This document shows, one piece after another, positions 2,313-28,321 of a DNA stretch of 28,321 nucleotides. The notes under the pieces are model-generated. The model did no database searches. It was not told the origin of the DNA and saw only the letters and a program-made list of their open reading frames with translations. Position 1 is the first letter of the stretch. Every line of letters starts with the position of its first letter. The position numbers were made by a program, and so were the translations under genes. Origin of the DNA: a virus. The stretch lies in the IMG/VR virus record IMGVR_UViG_3300009071_000044, positions 1 to 28,321 of that record; one strand, given 5' to 3'.

Positions 2313-3002
2313 TTATCCATAAAGTCTGTTATATTTTTTTAAATACATATTAGCTATATATTCATGTCCAGCTTTATTTGGGTGTAATCCATCTCCATCT
2401 GAAACTAAATACTTTTCTTTATCTCTTAGTAATACTTCAGACATAGGCTTGTCATATATTGGATGTCTTAGCCATCCTTTAGTTTTGAGGTTCCTATGGG
2501 GAAATTTAAAAGGTATATAACTGTGATCAATAGGTGGAAGCATTTGAGAAAATATATATTTTATATTTAGTGCTTCACATATATCAGTAAGAGTTTCAAT
2601 TTCTTCATAATACTTTTCTGCTATAATCTCTGGATCTGTTTTTGATATTAAAGCTTGAGCAACTGAGTAAGGATAATCACCTAAAAAATTATAAACTGGC
2701 GAATAGTCATCACCATCTTTACCATCTAACCAACGGATAGGATTAAAATGATGTCTATAATAAAAATGTAGACGAGTAGCATCAGTCCACCCAACTACAA
2801 CTAAATCAATTTCTTTATAATTACGAGATATAAACGGAAGTGATTTATCTAAAATATAATCATTCCCATAACCACACTTCGCAAAATTATAAAGAGGCTT
2901 GTCTAATTTTTCTGCTATTATTTCTGGCCACTTTAGCCAAGAAACGTCTAAGTCTGGTTGTGAATCTGATGCAGTATAACCACAACCTGCTGCTACTATC
3001 AT
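2313..3002 (-). CDS. SGNH/GDSL hydrolase-like protein with altered nucleophile motif
   Basis: The layout is that of an SGNH-fold esterase/acetylhydrolase of about 230 aa. It has an N-terminal strand with a glycine-rich turn (residues 3-12), a block II Gly near residue 44 (NFAKCGYGND), a third-block strand ending GWTD (71-74), and a clear C-terminal block V, DGLHPN (204-209), supplying the catalytic Asp and His. The block I nucleophile position is unusual: where families of this type have G-x-S, the sequence reads GCGYTASDS, with Gly at position 8. Ser12 or Ser14 may substitute, or the protein may be a binding rather than catalytic version. It overlaps dexA by 4 nt (ATGA). Members usually remove or handle acyl groups on carbohydrates, which is inference here. 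Confidence 0.7.
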   Translation of the reverse strand: MIVAAGCGYTASDSQPDLDVSWLKWPEIIAEKLDKPLYNFAKCGYGNDYILDKSLPFISRNYKEIDLVVVGWTDATRLHFYYRHHFNPIRWLDGKDGDDYSPVYNFLGDYPYSVAQALISKTDPEIIAEKYYEEIETLTDICEALNIKYIFSQMLPPIDHSYIPFKFPHRNLKTKGWLRHPIYDKPMSEVLLRDKEKYLVSDGDGLHPNKAGHEYIANMYLKKYNRLYG

Positions 3003-4551: not shown

Positions 4552-5271
4552 TCACTCCATTTTAAAAAGATAATCACCTCGGGCTGCATTTTTCCATTGA
4601 GGCGTGTAGTCCGTAAGATCTATTATAACATTATACCCCAAAGATTGTAAATAGCTTATTTCAAAATCTTTAATACTATTTTTCCAATGTGTTTCAGCAA
4701 TAATAACTGGATGATATTCCTGTATTGTATCTTTAGCACCAACTAAGATTTCAGGTAAATGACCTTCAGTATCAATCATTAGAAAATCTAATCCAGGTAA
4801 ATTTAAACAATCAATGTTTAGTGCCTGTACAGATAAAACATCTGTTACTTTTGCATCTGGCCAAGCATCGTCTGAAGCAACACGGCTTTGGCCTAGCTCT
4901 TCTGTACGTTCAAAGGCCAACTGTCCAGGAATTGTACTCAATGCTGCATTAAAGGGAATTACGTTATCACACGACGCAGTATTTGCAATTAAATGCTTAA
5001 AAGATTCAAAGTCAGGTTCAAACGTATAAACTGTTTCAAAATAATCTGACAATAAACGAGGTAAAACTCCAAGCCAACCTCCAGCTTGAAGTGCTATATC
5101 AAATTTGGTAACATGTTCAAATATAGCTTTTTTCTGACGACCTTCCCATTCAGTTTTTATAATATGGAATCCAACCGCGTCATTTTGATTAATAACGCTG
5201 GCTGGTAAAGACCAAGGGCCAACGCTATTATCGATATAAGAATTATATTGTTTCGTATTATTCTTCTTCAT
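4552..5271 (-). CDS. FkbM-family SAM-dependent methyltransferase
   Basis: A 239-aa Rossmann methyltransferase of the FkbM type, a family that O-methylates sugars or secondary metabolites. Motif I is at 58-69 (ALQAGGWLG), the acidic ribose-binding loop is TFEPD at 83-87, and the FkbM hallmark IDTEG follows at 166-170 (LDFLMIDTEGHLPEIL). The Asp of the common 'DVGANIG' motif is Gln here. The start ATG 5271 overlaps the small upstream gene by 14 nt with a poor SD, suggesting coupled translation. It sits between the sliding clamp and clamp loader genes, which are close in T4, so it looks like an inserted cargo gene. The substrate cannot be told; a surface glycan or fibre sugar is an inference. 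Confidence 0.85.
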   Translation of the reverse strand: MKKNNTKQYNSYIDNSVGPWSLPASVINQNDAVGFHIIKTEWEGRQKKAIFEHVTKFDIALQAGGWLGVLPRLLSDYFETVYTFEPDFESFKHLIANTASCDNVIPFNAALSTIPGQLAFERTEELGQSRVASDDAWPDAKVTDVLSVQALNIDCLNLPGLDFLMIDTEGHLPEILVGAKDTIQEYHPVIIAETHWKNSIKDFEISYLQSLGYNVIIDLTDYTPQWKNAARGDYLFKME

Positions 5272-10130: not shown

Positions 10131-11638
10131 TCAACTTCCACTTCATATATTTTATATTTAAATTTTTCTTTTTTATATATCTTTAGTCTTTCTATCCCAT
10201 GTAATAAAGAATAGTTTTTTCTGTTTTTCCAATGTAAATCATCTGAGAGATCAAATAGTTTTGCTGCTTCACCATTATCAGATTTCCTAAGTCCTCTTCC
10301 GATTGATTGTAACACTTTAATTTGTGACTTACTTGGACTAGCGAATATGATATTATGAAGATTGCGAATATTGATACCAGTGCTAAAAGTTCCCAACGAG
10401 GCCACAATGATCGCATTTTTCTGTCCTTCTGTAATTTTTCTAATTGCTTCTCTATCGGAAGCTTCTGTATTTCCTGAGACAAAGAAAATCTTTCTGCCTT
10501 CTTCAGCTCTGGATTCTATCATTTCATGTAAAGGTTTACCATGCTTTTCTACGAATTGAAATAGAACTAACGTGTTTCCATCTTGCTTTAATGCTAAATT
10601 TCTAATAAATGTGTTTCTTTTTTTATCGGTGATTAAATGTTCAATTTCATCGTGATATGATAACTGCCCAAAGTTTTTTCGAGTCTCTTCACTATGTTTA
10701 AAAACTATCATTGAAATATTTAAATCAGCAAGTGTATTTTCATCTTGTAGTTGTCTAGTAGTTGTAACCTTTAACAGTTTACCAAATAACCCTTCTAATA
10801 CCAATTGGTGGGTCTGAGTTCCATCGAGAGTGCCAGTGGTTCCAAACCTATAGGATGCATTACGTGATTTATTCATAATCGATGTTAAAGATTTCGATTT
10901 AAATCCATGACACTCATCACCAAACACAATTCCAAATTGTTCAAACCACGTTGGTGGTAATTTATATATGGATTGCCATGTACTAATAAACACTCTTTCA
11001 TTTATATTTATCTTTGGTTGACCAGAGTAAATTACGTGGCACTCATCACTTGGTATCCAAGACTGATCTGCCGAAGAATAATCTTCAAAGTCTGAATACA
11101 TTTGTCTAACAAGAGAAGTAGTTGGTACTATTATTAAAACTTTTTGATCGTAATTATGTAAGAACCATCGCATTAAAGCGTAAATAACTAGAGATTTACC
11201 AGATCCAGTTGGAGAAAGAAGTACAGCTCGCTTCCTTCTAATTCCTTCACATATGGCATTAAACTGATAATCTCTTATTTCTATTTCTTCGTTACGGCTA
11301 CGTAAGTCTAAGCTCTTTATAAAAGACATGACTTCTTTTGGATTAATATTGTTAAAATTTTCAGGTGATCCATATGGACTATCTTCATATTCAATTTCAT
11401 AATCACGTTTTTTACAAAAATCTTTTACATACGGTAATAGGCCTAATGCCACTTCATGTGTTTGAGCATTGAATAATCTTATTTTTCCATCCCACACTTT
11501 ATTTCTAAATGCAGGCATAAATTTATATCCAGGCACAAAGAAAGAAAAAAACTCACTTAGCTCAGCCGCAATACCGAAATCACAGCCGACAAGCATAATG
11601 CTTTCGTTTTTCTTTTGTATAATTAGTTTATCCGCCAC
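10127..11638 (-). CDS. uvsW: UvsW RNA-DNA and branched-DNA helicase
   Basis: UvsW is an SF2 helicase that unwinds R-loops at T4 origins and processes branched recombination intermediates, switching replication from origin- to recombination-dependent mode. Length is 503 aa, as in T4. Walker A is SPTGSGKS at 142-149, the DExH box is DECH at 241-244, and motif VI is QSIGRGLRKSD at 444-454. The N-terminal 110 residues form the expected separate small domain (VPGYKFMPAFRNKVWDGKIRLF). It overlaps uvsY by 11 nt and the next gene by 4 nt. Confidence 0.97.
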   Translation of the reverse strand: MADKLIIQKKNESIMLVGCDFGIAAELSEFFSFFVPGYKFMPAFRNKVWDGKIRLFNAQTHEVALGLLPYVKDFCKKRDYEIEYEDSPYGSPENFNNINPKEVMSFIKSLDLRSRNEEIEIRDYQFNAICEGIRRKRAVLLSPTGSGKSLVIYALMRWFLHNYDQKVLIIVPTTSLVRQMYSDFEDYSSADQSWIPSDECHVIYSGQPKININERVFISTWQSIYKLPPTWFEQFGIVFGDECHGFKSKSLTSIMNKSRNASYRFGTTGTLDGTQTHQLVLEGLFGKLLKVTTTRQLQDENTLADLNISMIVFKHSEETRKNFGQLSYHDEIEHLITDKKRNTFIRNLALKQDGNTLVLFQFVEKHGKPLHEMIESRAEEGRKIFFVSGNTEASDREAIRKITEGQKNAIIVASLGTFSTGINIRNLHNIIFASPSKSQIKVLQSIGRGLRKSDNGEAAKLFDLSDDLHWKNRKNYSLLHGIERLKIYKKEKFKYKIYEVEVE

Positions 11639-12074
11639 TTTCGAATTGTTTCCACTTAATTATATTTCCAATTGTTTGATGGCGCCATCTTAAAGTTTCT
11701 ACTATTTCATGTAAGGTTTCTACTAATGTTTTACAGTATTCAATTTTTTCTTCACTTCTTTGAATTTCTGTATCTGAATCATAATAGTAATCCATTTCAC
11801 CTTTCATTACTTTCAAACCTTCAAATGGATCGTAATCCCATCCTAATTTTTCTATTTCAGACTGATCCATTTTTCCATTATAATATTTCCATTTTTGTTT
11901 TAATAGAATTTTTTGCTCTAACTTTGCTTTTTTTAATCGCAATTTTGCTACAGCTAAGAATTGTAAATATTTTGCGTGGAGTGTTGCGCTGTCTACCGAA
12001 GATCTTGCTAAATCATTTTGATGAATAACGCTGTCAGTTTTCCAATTACTCAATACATTATCTAAATTTATCAT
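11628..12074 (-). CDS. uvsY: UvsY recombination mediator
   Basis: UvsY loads the UvsX recombinase onto gp32-coated single-stranded DNA. The 148-aa protein (137 in T4) is helical and Lys-rich in the middle (LRLKKAKLEQKILLKQKWKY), with an N-terminal NVLSNWKTDS segment and a C-terminal ETLRWRHQTIGNIIKWKQF helix typical of this family. It is followed by uvsW with an 11-nt overlap, the order known in T4 and cyanophages. Its start shares 1 nt with the stop of the sulfotransferase-like gene. Confidence 0.93.
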   Translation of the reverse strand: MINLDNVLSNWKTDSVIHQNDLARSSVDSATLHAKYLQFLAVAKLRLKKAKLEQKILLKQKWKYYNGKMDQSEIEKLGWDYDPFEGLKVMKGEMDYYYDSDTEIQRSEEKIEYCKTLVETLHEIVETLRWRHQTIGNIIKWKQFESGG

Positions 12075-12943
12075 TAAACCTCTACATGCATATTAGAAAA
12101 AGTTGGTCTATGCTCATGTCTTAATAACTCTTCTAGTTTATTATAAGCATCCATCTTTATGTAATATTTATTATCTCCAATATGGCCGTCTTCTTGTAAA
12201 CTTATAAAGTCCCAAACATTATAAAACAACCATCTAAAAGTAATATGGAGAATTGTCATATCACCGCCAGGTCGATATAAATCTTCGTATGAAGTTGATG
12301 AGTATCGACAACCAAATCTACCCATCCATCTCCAAACCATGATATTTTTTTCTCTAGTTTTTACTTCTTGATCTCTTAACTGACCTAATTTTTTTTCATC
12401 TGGTTCTTCTGGTTTCCATTTAGACAAATTTAATTCTGAAATTTCCCAATTTTTAGAAGTCCAGTTTTCACTTTCTTCAGCCCAATATAAAGATAATAAG
12501 CGATTCATAGAATTACGTCTATGAATGAAAATATTACTGTAATGATAATCATTTGCCTTTTGTATAATTAACTGACATAATGTGTCAGGAGTATATTCAT
12601 TTATAATTCTAAATGAAGGTCGATGCCATAAAATCATAGAAACAGCGCGGGATAATTTTTGATGATCTTTATCTTGTTCATATTGCTCATAAACATTTCT
12701 AAATATGCCATGAATAGGATCAAAGATAGTGTCACTCATATCATCTCTATAAACAGTATATCCTGCTTTTTCTACTACATCAAACAGATCATTCCATATA
12801 GTAAGCTTATGATGTTCAACTGTCATCCAGTTAAAGAATCTACCGCCGCCGGTTCTTTGGTTACACCAAACTATCATTGATCTATATAGTCTAACATACT
12901 CATCCACTACACGTGGTCCATATTGAATTTCTTTGTCACTCAT
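12074..12943 (-). CDS. Sulfotransferase-like protein
   Basis: The 289-aa protein has the two landmark regions of PAPS-dependent sulfotransferases in the right order. Near the N-terminus a strand ends in a 5'-phosphosulfate-loop-like turn (SMIVWCNQRTGGGRF, 22-36). About 110 residues later a strand-helix reads NIFIHRRNSMNRLLSLYWA (137-155), where Arg142/Arg143 and Ser151 match the 3'-phosphate-binding R-x(7,8)-S pattern. WNDLFD at 50-55 resembles the 'NELF' region of these enzymes. The loop is atypical (RTGGGR rather than RSGTT/S), so activity is uncertain. It would transfer sulfate to a sugar or protein hydroxyl. It is inserted between gp3 and uvsY, which are adjacent in related marine phages. 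Confidence 0.65.
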   Translation of the reverse strand: MSDKEIQYGPRVVDEYVRLYRSMIVWCNQRTGGGRFFNWMTVEHHKLTIWNDLFDVVEKAGYTVYRDDMSDTIFDPIHGIFRNVYEQYEQDKDHQKLSRAVSMILWHRPSFRIINEYTPDTLCQLIIQKANDYHYSNIFIHRRNSMNRLLSLYWAEESENWTSKNWEISELNLSKWKPEEPDEKKLGQLRDQEVKTREKNIMVWRWMGRFGCRYSSTSYEDLYRPGGDMTILHITFRWLFYNVWDFISLQEDGHIGDNKYYIKMDAYNKLEELLRHEHRPTFSNMHVEV

Positions 12944-12956
12944 AATATCTTATCTC

Positions 12957-13457
12957 TTAGGTTATTTCAAAGTGGGTTGTTCTAAATGTTATTGGAAAGG
13001 TTATTGGAGTTGGTTCTGTTAATGTAGATTGGAAAGAAATTGTACCAATTGAAACAGGTACACAATCTATATATTTAATTTTTTTAACTACATTATTATG
13101 ACTAGACATTACTAATAATGTAATATCAGCCTCAGGAACAAAAGTAGAATCTGGATCTCTTGAACCTGGTGTTTCATAATTTGATTGTACTGATTGTATA
13201 AGCCAATTGTACATTTCTACGTATGAAACCATATCTTCATCAACTAATACATCCATTGATAATTCATCGGTTGTTACTGTATCTCCTGTTAAAGATATCG
13301 AAGAAACTCTAGGAATAGGCATTGATACAGGATTGACTGAAGCACCAGGATGATTTACATTCTGAACAAAATACGTTAAATTAGAATAATTTCGATCAAT
13401 TGAGATCTGAAATTGTGTAGCTTGTAATAGATTTATATTATTTGTAATATTGGCCAT
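12957..13457 (-). CDS. gp3: Tail completion / tail tube terminator protein gp3
   Basis: T4 gp3 caps the tail tube once it has reached full length. This 166-aa protein (176 in T4) shares the arrangement of T4 gp3: an N-terminal FQISIDR strand, a VLVDEDMVSYVEMYNWLIQ segment matching T4's IVDEELKSWIGMYEWML, a strand ITLLVMSSHNNVVKKI, and a C-terminal ITFRTTHFEI matching T4's TIPYTYFQVE. The fold is related to the gp19 tube. It comes directly after gp23, as in cyanophage genomes, and has its own exact late promoter and an SD (GAGG) before ATG 13457. Confidence 0.85.
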   Translation of the reverse strand: MANITNNINLLQATQFQISIDRNYSNLTYFVQNVNHPGASVNPVSMPIPRVSSISLTGDTVTTDELSMDVLVDEDMVSYVEMYNWLIQSVQSNYETPGSRDPDSTFVPEADITLLVMSSHNNVVKKIKYIDCVPVSIGTISFQSTLTEPTPITFPITFRTTHFEIT

Positions 13458-13479
13458 GAATTACCTCGTTATTCTGTTT

Positions 13480-24530: not shown

Positions 24531-25286
24531 TTAACCTACAAAAAATGCTGGAGGGAGTTCGTGTTCTAATCTAATTTTTTCTTCAAGCGATTCTATTTCT
24601 GTTATAGCATCTTCAAAAATTTGTCTTCCATTCATTGTTACGCCGCCTGGAAGTTGCATTCCTTCAAACTTAATAAGGTTAGCACCCCATTGTCTTTTTA
24701 TTAATGCAGTGGTATATTTTTTCAGCCACATATCATTATAAACTGAAGTATGGGTATCAGGATCTACAGTTTGATAAACTTCAGCTACAATATAATCACC
24801 TTCTTTTATATCTTTATCTGCAAAATCTCCATGAATATAAAGCCTGTTTTGTCTTCTAGCAAAATTAACTATAGGCGCACCATTTAATTTCATATCTAAT
24901 AAAGATAAGTATTGTTGCATTTGTTCATAATAAGCTAAATCACCAGCCCAGTTTTGCAAATCTGCTATGTCATTTAACATCATTTGATATTTAATATCAA
25001 AAAAATTCATTGAGTTATTAAATGAGCTTGAAAGAGGAAAAAGTCTTTGTACATAAAGTATATCTGCAGAGATTGGAATATACTCATTAGTAACATCAGA
25101 TGCAGTAACTTGATGTTTTAAATATGTTTTAAATGTGGCGTCTGAATGAAATTCTTGATAATATTGAATAGCTTCATCAACGCGATCTTCTATTTGATCT
25201 ACATCTACATTAATTTCAATAACAGGATCACCCAATTTCCTTAAAGAATAATCAATTAAATCATTTCTACTTGCAGGACTGGCCAT
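24531..25286 (-). CDS. gp13: Neck protein gp13
   Basis: gp13 completes the head-tail connector. The 251-aa protein (309 in T4) starts MASPASRNDLIDYSLRKLG, with VDVDQIEDRVDEAIQYYQEF following; both are hallmarks of the gp13 family. KKYTTALIKRQWGANLIKF is a second conserved stretch. SD GGAG precedes ATG 25286 and a late promoter lies 30 nt upstream. It opens the long virion operon. Confidence 0.95.
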   Translation of the reverse strand: MASPASRNDLIDYSLRKLGDPVIEINVDVDQIEDRVDEAIQYYQEFHSDATFKTYLKHQVTASDVTNEYIPISADILYVQRLFPLSSSFNNSMNFFDIKYQMMLNDIADLQNWAGDLAYYEQMQQYLSLLDMKLNGAPIVNFARRQNRLYIHGDFADKDIKEGDYIVAEVYQTVDPDTHTSVYNDMWLKKYTTALIKRQWGANLIKFEGMQLPGGVTMNGRQIFEDAITEIESLEEKIRLEHELPPAFFVG

Positions 25287-25315: not shown

Positions 25316-27904
25316 CTATTTATAAGATTTTGTTGGTCTAAAAACTCTTTGTCCAATATGATCACACATTAAACTTGTATCTGCCCAAACTTCAAATCCA
25401 TTCGCACGAGCCTTTTGACAAAAATAAGTATCTTCTGATATAGTGTTTTTATGATCTATCGCAGGCTTATATAAGAAATGAGGATATTCTAATGTTTTAT
25501 AAACCTCACCTTTAACTAAAACGCAACCAAATCCACACCCACCAACTTGAACTAAACCATGTGGCAACGCGGCGAGTACTGCGTGATCTAAGCCTCCAGT
25601 ATGTGGATTATCTAAAAATATTTCAGGTGTGTTGTTTTCGTTTCTTTGAACATATACACCAGAAACAACATCTTTGTCATATGATATTAATTTTTCTAAT
25701 GTGTCATTTGGTAATATTATATCTGAATCTACGTGTAATACAAAATCATAGTGTTTACCCCATTCAGCTATTAAGTTTCTTATTTGATCTACTTGATAAC
25801 CATAGAAAAATTCTAATTGAGTTTCGTATCCATTTGGAACTCTTAAATCATATATAGATTTAAAAGTATCAGATTCAATATTTTTATTTGTTGGTACTGC
25901 AATCAGTATTCTTTTCAAATCAAATTCCTTTTTATATGAAACAGAAGCATTTTTATTTTGTTCTATTGTATTCACTTTATAATCGTTTAGAGGATTTACA
26001 TCATTATAATAACAAACTATTTCTTTTACTGCTTTAATTTTTTCGTGGGGAATTTTTTCTATTAGTTCATAAAATAGTGGATTATCCATACCACTCATTA
26101 AAAAATTTCCATCTTCTTTAAAAACTTCTTCATTTAAATCTAAACAGTATTCACCTTTAACAGTTCTTAAATGAGTATAAGGTATTTTCCAGTTAAATAG
26201 ATGTTCCCTGTAAGTTTTATTTTCTTTTACTTTTTTAGGATAATCTTGAGCAACTAATGGAATTTCATCTGCTAAACTCCACATAGATCCATATGTGAAT
26301 TCGTATCCTTCATCGTATAATCTGTTATAATAATCGAATAAAGTATTATTACTAACTAAAAAGTCGTCACCATCTAAAAACATAACAATGTCATCTTTTT
26401 TAACAAACTTTTTAATTGCTTTTAATTGATTTGCAATACACCCTTCTCTTTTAGAATTTCTTATTACGCACCTATTTTTATTTTCCATTATAATAGGTGT
26501 ATCGTCTGATGCATCATCTACTAATACATGAATATAATTATTATAGTCTTGCTGTTCAATTGACCTGCAATGTGTATAAACATAATCATTAGCGTTTCTA
26601 AATGGTGAAACTATTATTATTCTTCTTTCAATTCCAATTTTAGGATGTACGATTAAATCATCTTCATTTACAAACTTTCTTCCGTAAATTCTTGCTACAT
26701 CTCGGTTAATTTTATTAACTTTTTTAAAATCAGTTTTTGGTAAATATTCTTCAACTTTTCTATAAAAGTGTTGTTTCCATTGTAATGCTATAGTAGACCA
26801 TGAATAAATGTCGTTTACTACATCACAATAATTTTGTTTTTGCATAAGTAAATAATCATTATGATAAGCGTCTAATACTAAATCTATAAATTTTTTAGAT
26901 TGTTCTTCTGCATTTATGTAAGGAAATAATCCATTTGGAACTATTGGATAATCAGTTTTATAACATGCTAAATCAATAGCGGTTTCTTCTAAAGCACCAA
27001 AATTATTTGTAATGACCGGTGTCTTATATAAAAGAGATTCTAAAGTTGATATACCAAATGTTTCAGGATATTCAGTTGGATATAACATAAAAGTAGCATT
27101 AGCTAGAATTTCTGCTACCTTTTTTTGTGAAATTACCCCAGTAAAAGATACATCTAAATCGCTATTTTCAAATTCTTTCTGATAACGAATTAAATCCTGT
27201 TCTTGTTTATCAGGCTCAGCTTTATCTGAAAATTTATAAAACCCACCTATTATTGTCAATTTAGCTTCAGGTATTTTTTTCTTTACTTCAGGCCAAATTA
27301 ATTGCAATAATGGATTAAGCCCTTTAGTAACAGCAGATGCATACACAAAATGATTTTTATCTTTTTTAGATAAATCTATTTCATCTATATGTTTGGTCGC
27401 ACCGTTTCTAGTTTGAAAGATATAAGGTTTCATCACTTCAAACATTCTTTTAATATTAAAATGATCACTGGTTGTTGTGTAAACTGTATGAAAATCAGAT
27501 AAAGTAAATAATTGGTGTATTACTCCAGTTTCTAGCAAATTTGGAATAGATTCATCACCCCAAGCAAAAGTGTCGTGTAACCACATAACTCTATACTTCG
27601 AATTCATAACCATATCATGGTATCTTTGAGGCTCAAGAAATGGAATTGTTGTTCTAGAAACTACAGTGATATCAAATCTTTCACTAAAATCTGCTTCACT
27701 ATGATCAACGTATCGTACATTGTCATAGATTCCAGATGAAGAAGTTTCATCATTACAATTATTAAACACAGTAACTTCAAATCCAATTTTTTGAAGTTCT
27801 TTTGCCATCATTACTACAGCATATTCAGATCCACCTAGTCCACGTTTACTAAGTGTTTCACCATCATACACTAAACCTAAAGGATCGATAAATGCAATTT
27901 TCAT
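25316..27904 (-). CDS. Three-domain glycosyltransferase (GT4-GT2-GT-A)
   Basis: An 862-aa fusion of three glycosyltransferase modules. Residues 1-380 form a GT-B, GT4-type domain with GGSE at 24-27 and the E-x7-E motif (Glu281...Glu289 in ETFGISTLE). Residues about 428-640 form a GT-A, GT2-type domain, with VDDAS at 462-466 and the DxD-like DGDD at 511-514. Residues about 664-862 form another GT-A-like domain with DSD at 726-728 and a later SED...WADTSLMCDH segment that may supply acid and metal-binding residues. No signal peptide or membrane segment is seen, so it should act in the cytoplasm. It lies between a fibre-like gene and gp13. The target (fibre protein, virion glycan or host surface sugar) is unknown. 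Confidence 0.9.
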   Translation of the reverse strand: MKIAFIDPLGLVYDGETLSKRGLGGSEYAVVMMAKELQKIGFEVTVFNNCNDETSSSGIYDNVRYVDHSEADFSERFDITVVSRTTIPFLEPQRYHDMVMNSKYRVMWLHDTFAWGDESIPNLLETGVIHQLFTLSDFHTVYTTTSDHFNIKRMFEVMKPYIFQTRNGATKHIDEIDLSKKDKNHFVYASAVTKGLNPLLQLIWPEVKKKIPEAKLTIIGGFYKFSDKAEPDKQEQDLIRYQKEFENSDLDVSFTGVISQKKVAEILANATFMLYPTEYPETFGISTLESLLYKTPVITNNFGALEETAIDLACYKTDYPIVPNGLFPYINAEEQSKKFIDLVLDAYHNDYLLMQKQNYCDVVNDIYSWSTIALQWKQHFYRKVEEYLPKTDFKKVNKINRDVARIYGRKFVNEDDLIVHPKIGIERRIIIVSPFRNANDYVYTHCRSIEQQDYNNYIHVLVDDASDDTPIIMENKNRCVIRNSKREGCIANQLKAIKKFVKKDDIVMFLDGDDFLVSNNTLFDYYNRLYDEGYEFTYGSMWSLADEIPLVAQDYPKKVKENKTYREHLFNWKIPYTHLRTVKGEYCLDLNEEVFKEDGNFLMSGMDNPLFYELIEKIPHEKIKAVKEIVCYYNDVNPLNDYKVNTIEQNKNASVSYKKEFDLKRILIAVPTNKNIESDTFKSIYDLRVPNGYETQLEFFYGYQVDQIRNLIAEWGKHYDFVLHVDSDIILPNDTLEKLISYDKDVVSGVYVQRNENNTPEIFLDNPHTGGLDHAVLAALPHGLVQVGGCGFGCVLVKGEVYKTLEYPHFLYKPAIDHKNTISEDTYFCQKARANGFEVWADTSLMCDHIGQRVFRPTKSYK
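25317..25324 (-). promoter_or_regulatory. Late promoter (TATAAATA) for gp13-gp17
   Basis: Exact late octamer on the minus strand. Its last bases coincide with the TAG stop codon of the glycosyltransferase gene, so promoter and coding sequence overlap. Confidence 0.8.
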
Positions 27905-27923: not shown

Positions 27924-27931
27924 AACTATTT
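27924..27931 (-). promoter_or_regulatory. Degenerate late-promoter-like site before the glycosyltransferase
   Basis: On the minus strand AATAAATA, differing from TATAAATA at the first base, overlaps the region of the stop codon of the glycine-rich gene and lies about 20 nt before the glycosyltransferase ATG. Placement resembles the exact late promoters elsewhere, but the match is imperfect. Confidence 0.3.
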
Positions 27932-27932
27932 A

Positions 27933-28321
27933 TTATACGTTTCCGGTGTTAGTTGCAGGATACGCTCTATCAGCTCCCCAAATGATTCTAACAGCCCCAT
28001 CAGCTCCGTCTCCGCCAAAACCAGTGTAATCATCGTCATCGGCACCACCGCCGCCGCCATATAATCCGCCGTTAGAATTTGAATTTCCTACAGAACCATT
28101 CGCGCCGCCAGATCCACCATTGCCTCCCTGCCCGGAGCCAGGTAACCCGCCCGATGCTCCTTCACCCAAAATACCAACGCCACCACCGCCGCCGCAAGCT
28201 GAGCTTATGCAAGTACCACCAGAGCCACCACCGCCAGATCCTGCTGATCCACCGGTGTTGCTATTTGAGTATGCACCAGCCCCACCATTTCCAGAATAGC
28301 CAGCAGCACCACCACCGGCAC
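27933..28321 (-). CDS. Glycine-rich fibre/adhesin-like protein, C-terminal part
   Basis: The frame is open from the right edge to a TAA at 27933, giving the last about 128 residues of a larger protein; the apparent TTG start at 28169 is internal. It is dominated by Gly with Ser, Asn and Ala in runs (GGGGG, GGSGG), carries two Cys (TCISSAC) and an Asp cluster (DDDDY), then ends in a non-glycine tail, GAVRIIWGADRAYPATNTGNV. Glycine-rich segments of this kind form polyglycine-II bundles in phage tail-fibre adhesins, and the RIIWG...P tail recalls C-termini of marine phage structural proteins. The higher GC of this stretch follows from the Gly codons. Confidence 0.8.
   Translation of the reverse strand, partial: AGGGAAGYSGNGGAGAYSNSNTGGSAGSGGGGSGGTCISSACGGGGGVGILGEGASGGLPGSGQGGNGGSGGANGSVGNSNSNGGLYGGGGGADDDDYTGFGGDGADGAVRIIWGADRAYPATNTGNV

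Follow-up and report, generated by a model that had tools for sequence, protein, structure and literature searches.

Fusions of several glycosyltransferase (GT) domains in one viral polypeptide are known from the chloroviruses. A064R of PBCV-1 is a GT-GT-methyltransferase fusion with verified activities, which builds the tip of the capsid-protein glycan (PMC7019647, PMC9614988); in vitro it adds two rhamnosyl units and then methylates the terminal one at O-2 (PMC9614988). In A111/114R of the same virus, three GT domains, proposed to be Gal-, Xyl- and Fuc-transferases, share one chain of 860 aa, with a suggested role in making the core oligosaccharide of the capsid glycan (PMC9614988). Mycobacteriophages use GTs of their own, such as Che8 gp110 and Corndog gp38, to glycosylate capsid and tail-tube proteins (PMC12363180). 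In T4-like aquatic pelagimyophages, the GTs of the host-recognition cluster, an island between a baseplate gene and gp14 that adjoins the fibres, were read as host O-chain enzymes, with GT8 reported as the most represented family (PMC7029224).

The GT protein analysed here joins one GT-B and two GT-A modules in 862 aa. No description of such a trimodular protein was found in the open-access literature; multi-GT fusion, known from chloroviruses, is met here in tailed phages in a conserved, widespread and apparently undescribed form. With A064R it shares several virus-encoded GT domains in one soluble chain and, in relatives, a capping methyltransferase, A064R being an enzyme that acts on the glycan of its own virus (PMC9614988). 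The C-terminal sugar methyltransferase, however, is absent from the window copy and present in 47 related loci, and A064R is a protein of 638 aa with other GT domain types from a eukaryotic algal virus; the likeness, taken from descriptions and not from sequence comparison, is one of mode of working. A111/114R has a similar length and three GT domains, but no N-terminal GT4 is described for it. The mycobacteriophage enzymes, likewise phage GTs modifying virion proteins and likened here by description rather than by sequence, are encoded by separate genes in siphophages of actinobacteria. The pelagimyophage cluster resembles our locus in phage type and fibre neighbourhood, whereas the available text describes no trimodular protein (PMC7029224).

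The window, by which we mean the whole stretch of 28,321 bases analysed (IMG/VR IMGVR_UViG_3300009071_000044), belongs to an aquatic T4-like virus of bacteria. Its late genes run on the minus strand (gp13, gp14, gp15, gp16, gp17, gp18, gp19, gp20, on to the major head protein), and its terminase shares 71% identity with the one of Phage C48C1 (Kyanoviridae) and 47-49% with those of cyanophages. The GT gene occupies 25316-27904 (minus), where the plus strand is stop-rich; a chance ORF was ruled out by conserved motifs, dN/dS and structure models. Read along the minus strand, both neighbours were found where the sequence-only reading had placed them. Upstream lies the C-terminal part of a Gly-rich fibre-like protein (27933-28319, minus; 39% Gly), cut by the window edge and a candidate acceptor, and downstream lies gp13, the head-tail adaptor Ad2 (24531-25286, minus; PHROG 211, 3.4e-42). 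The Gly-rich gene is complete, as a 342 aa homologue, in locus L002, whose GT protein is 99.9% identical to that of the window. In C48C1, which is not among the 120 records with a GT match, a structural gene runs straight into gp13, so the GT gene looks like an accessory insertion before gp13. Elsewhere in the window, a GDSL-hydrolase-like ORF (2313-3002, minus) scores under the Pfam cut-off.

An AlphaFold model of the whole protein (pLDDT 89.1, pTM 0.73) resolved three domains, and the proposed order of a GT4-like GT-B module and two GT-A modules was borne out by Pfam, profiles, models and structure superposition. Domain 1 (residues 1-388; 26741-27904, minus) contains Pfam Glycos_transf_1 (PF00534) at residues 179-324 with 53 bits against a cut-off of 26.4, and its residues 1-386 superpose on MshA (3c4q) with Z 30.6 and 2.7 Å over 329 residues; BshA and PimA match likewise. 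The GT-B fold, Glycos_transf_1 and an E-x7-E motif place it in GT4. A helical linker seen in the secondary structure of the model (residues 389-426; 26627-26740, minus) leads to domain 2 (residues 427-655; 25940-26626, minus), a GT-A fold with Glycos_transf_2 (PF00535) at residues 431-552 (50.3 bits, cut-off 23.3) and profile matches to TagF, GalT1 and TarS; the Glycos_transf_2 domain with its DXD motif identifies it as GT2.

Domain 3 (residues 660-862; 25319-25927, minus) reached pLDDT 94.4 when modelled alone. No Pfam family exceeds its cut-off there, the value for Anp1 (GT62) being 19.9 bits against 28.8. Its closest solved structure is A197 of STIV (2c0n; Z 20.4, 2.2 Å, 167 residues, 22% identity), which is also the best profile match; a profile of 56 sequences matches A197 at 1.3e-8 and yeast Mnn9 at 1.6e-4, and the domain matches PHROG 1574 at 2.6e-21. 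A shared fold and a detectable sequence relation thus group it with the A197-like viral GT-A proteins, although A197 is a stand-alone GT-A protein of an archaeal virus. A distant domain-3 homologue occurs in mycobacteriophages such as Baka and Halley. A collagen-glycosyltransferase reading was considered and rejected: the best structural matches include human LH3, COLGALT1 and Mimivirus R699, yet the match to LH3 (residues 293-536, Z 18.9) is to an accessory domain, and therefore no function was drawn from it for domain 3.

The acidic and E-x7-E motifs expected of the modules are intact in each (E281-x7-E289, D464, D511-G-D-D514, D607, D726-x-D728, E824-D825 and H849), as had been claimed. All these residues, which include the catalytic ones of each domain, are invariant across 52 homologues of 46-92% identity, so that no domain looks like a dead remnant. 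E281-x7-E289 of domain 1 is encoded at 27038-27064, the DXD of domain 2 (D511-G-D-D514, with D511, D513 and D514 invariant) at 26363-26374, the DXD of domain 3 (D726-x-D728) at 25721-25729 and the candidate catalytic acids E824-D825 of domain 3 at 25430-25435, all on the minus strand. Pairwise dN/dS between the window and its 92% relative is 0.05 for GT4, 0.06 for GT2 and 0.19 for the third domain; judged by these ratios, each domain is under purifying selection, and domain 3 evolves faster yet is constrained.

A conserved-peptide scan of viral contigs yielded 550 candidate relatives. Among the best 80 of these 550 (IMG/VR), nearly all match over the full length and the three-domain order recurs. 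A predicted viral structure library contains two relatives of near full length, both from uncultured phages and one of them labelled 'Methyltransferase FkbM', while the named-phage collection gave partial matches and no full-length relative. A cellular origin of the whole fusion was rejected after a conserved-peptide scan of 84,980 genomes, in which one MAG contig matches at full length and the others share domain 2 only; plasmids share domain 1 only. The full-length copy (L091, 8370-11031) lies on a contig that was assigned to a gammaproteobacterial MAG but is probably of phage origin. The GT2 domain alone has an unexpected cellular distribution in Dependentiae/TM6/Babeliales MAGs (L094, L095, L096, L099, L101). 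Domain 3 is a separate ORF in the near-identical loci L073 and L077 and in L007, where the split, an apparent one-base frameshift in an A run, may be a sequencing error. In L037, the terminase (gp17 cluster; 11148-13381) is in two ORFs, and an intein-like stretch opens the second.

Most relatives reach 1,080-1,130 aa owing to a fourth, C-terminal FkbM methyltransferase domain (PF05050, 44.8 bits in L017), which the window protein lacks, as does its lineage. Apart from the 47 loci with the fusion, FkbM is the next gene in about a dozen and a remnant in several. In nine loci (L035, L037, L040, L047, L059, L060, L061, L065, L066) a separate FkbM gene comes directly after the three-domain form, L057 and L058 have the fused form plus a separate FkbM gene directly after it, and a shortened remnant is present in L024-L026, L030, L031, L073 and L077. 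Mapped on the tree, presence of the methyltransferase in whatever form takes 9 changes and the four-state label 13, or 15 if two unassigned rows are treated as a group. Because FkbM is fused in some loci and adjacent in others, there is good reason to expect that methylation would act on the product of the transferases. The window itself has a free-standing FkbM ORF (4552-5271, minus; PF05050, 28.8 bits over 22.7) ~20 kb from the GT gene, a possible partner in trans. It sits among replication genes, weakly matches (4e-8) those methyltransferase genes that in relatives come after the GT gene, and was found neither in the C48C1 record nor in the fragmentary record of the 92% relative. A weak sulfotransferase-like gene follows the methyltransferase gene in L035 (7407-7988, plus), and in L048 a GT29 (sialyltransferase-like) gene (12922-13458, plus) and another methyltransferase gene lie near the GT gene; judged by these similarities, further decoration of the glycan by the sulfotransferase-like and GT29-like products is possible.

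Adjacency to fibre genes is common but not universal. With a strict definition of fibre-like genes (collagen triplets or at least 18% Gly) and 48 non-redundant loci, the GT gene has a Gly-rich or collagen-like neighbour at a distance of up to two genes in 28 loci and of up to four in 33; the other 15 of the 48 lack a Gly-rich neighbour within four genes. Among the best-scoring matches listed for eight longer records, the GT gene is closer to collagen repeats than random positions are (combined p ~0.001). The GT gene either is co-directional with the fibre genes and precedes gp13, as in the window, or is opposed to the fibre genes (e.g., L006-L010, L056-L066, L071, L074), or is followed by a NUDIX gene and a gp15-like gene on the other strand. 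The collagen triplets are Thr-rich in most loci and Gln-rich in some, and because of this variation no common acceptor site is visible. Thr at the collagen Y position, considered as a glycosylation site, was not retained, since its share of 38%, a figure with no control set beside it, is frequent yet not universal. In L048, a phage with collagen-like fibres, a 2-oxoglutarate/Fe(II) oxygenase gene (PF13640; 8429-8998, plus) ends directly before the GT gene; 3 of the 24 related records contain the family. As a hypervariable island, the fibre region gathers many accessory genes, so the neighbourhood weighs little in the choice of acceptor.

Promoter motifs divide the family. In the window, the late-type motif AATAAATA (27927-27934, minus) stands 30 nt upstream of the GT start codon, and TATAAATA (25317-25324, minus), which overlaps the GT gene end 38 nt upstream of gp13, is a candidate late promoter of gp13. 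Of 50 upstream regions of GT genes, 13 contain the late-type motif NATAAATA (3.1 expected). Near-consensus sigma-70 promoters of early type (TTGACA-N16/17-TATAAT-like, scored at ≥11/12 matches) lie directly upstream in 17 of 50 relatives, nine of them perfect, where 0.2 are expected; L069, L076, L086, L045, L089, L068, L079, L072, L038 and others have perfect or near-perfect examples in the upstream 100 nt. Upstream of neighbouring structural and NUDIX genes, ~159 regions in all, no promoter attains this score. The early type is found in 0 of 12 members with gp13 next versus 17 of 38 others (Fisher p 0.004, relatedness ignored) and takes 6 changes on the tree; from these motifs, whether expression is early or late seems tied to the place of the gene in the genome. 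The sequence-only reading had called the protein late, which holds for the window with NATAAATA at -30 and does not for much of the family. Downstream terminators were seen in 1 of 49 loci, and so an isolated transcription unit is not supported.

These early-type promoters weaken the argument from late timing and strengthen the possible, if rather unlikely, alternative that the enzyme remodels polysaccharide of the host surface, or precursors of it, early in infection and thereby keeps other phages, or the phage's own progeny, from binding to the infected cell or its debris; the fibre neighbourhood would then reflect joint selection for host range. The promoters of the 17 relatives would be no less fitting for a host target than for a late structural protein. 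The published interpretation of the pelagimyophage GTs (PMC7029224) and the sugar-nucleotide-type genes in some GT neighbourhoods point the same way. The window's group, however, has the late-type motif and no early promoter, and the protein contains no 19-residue segment above a mean Kyte-Doolittle hydropathy of 1.45, i.e., no transmembrane segment. It also departs from the GtrB-like O-antigen conversion type, with no membrane anchor and a PHROG 841 match of E 0.0058, and no flippase or GtrA/GtrC-like partner was noticed adjoining the GT gene. Modification of a virion protein is favoured over the host surface, as the enzyme is soluble and sits among structural genes, and as virion glycosylation has precedents.

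T4-like phages employ DNA glucosyltransferases, and several kinds of GT fold serve this purpose in phages, which would allow the domains to glycosylate modified bases of phage DNA against restriction. The GT gene is placed among structural genes, though, and a TET/JBP hydroxylase occurs in 1 of 24 relatives' records, which are fragmentary, ~36 kb from the GT gene (L006 record, G005, 81576-82013); DNA modification is an unlikely role, and we give it very little weight. It is improbable, though somewhat less so, that activity is confined to one or two domains and the others are structural. The resemblance of domain 3 to LH3 residues 293-536 speaks for this idea, as that inert GT-A-like accessory domain of a collagen-modifying enzyme is dispensable for LH3 transferase activity (PMC9546862). 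Against it, the DXD, ED and H of domain 3 are invariant in the 52 homologues and also in stand-alone relatives, and the domain is nearer to A197 than to LH3. A processive polymerase finds no support. Heparosan synthase 2 and the chondroitin polymerase K4CP, among the top Foldseek matches of the whole model, are bifunctional, with two GT-A domains per chain, and polymerise a repeat; in the window protein a GT4 domain comes first and domain 3 has no Pfam GT2 match above cut-off.

Synthesis of a short oligosaccharide, as first proposed, is the natural reading of three motif-intact GT modules conserved as a unit in a large family. Its processive part was dropped, because three different domains imply single additions in sequence. 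As to sugars, order of addition, acceptor and purpose, we infer that the three active sites would each add a sugar in turn, each domain handing its product to the next, to give a short glycan some two to three sugars long, which in most relatives the FkbM domain or the next gene would cap by O-methylation. The acceptor would most likely be a virion protein, foremost the neighbouring Gly-rich or collagen-like fibre proteins, which the glycan may mask or tune. That the enzyme makes such a glycan, often methyl-capped in relatives, on a virion protein, first of all its fibre neighbours, is a reading to which we give an even chance.

More tentatively, a widespread family of aquatic T4-like phages may carry a one-polypeptide glycan assembly line, three transferases and mostly a methyl cap, that coats collagen-like tail fibres as a counterpart of chlorovirus capsid glycosylation and is switched between early and late expression by its place in the genome. 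The fused enzyme would also offer a compact means of making glycans in a set order. Should the fibres be glycosylated and methyl-capped, common aquatic phages would have a receptor-binding apparatus that is a glycoprotein of their own making. Such a finding would matter for host range, for the concealment of adhesins by phages, and for the question why so many marine phages carry sugar genes, hitherto read as modifiers of the host O-antigen.
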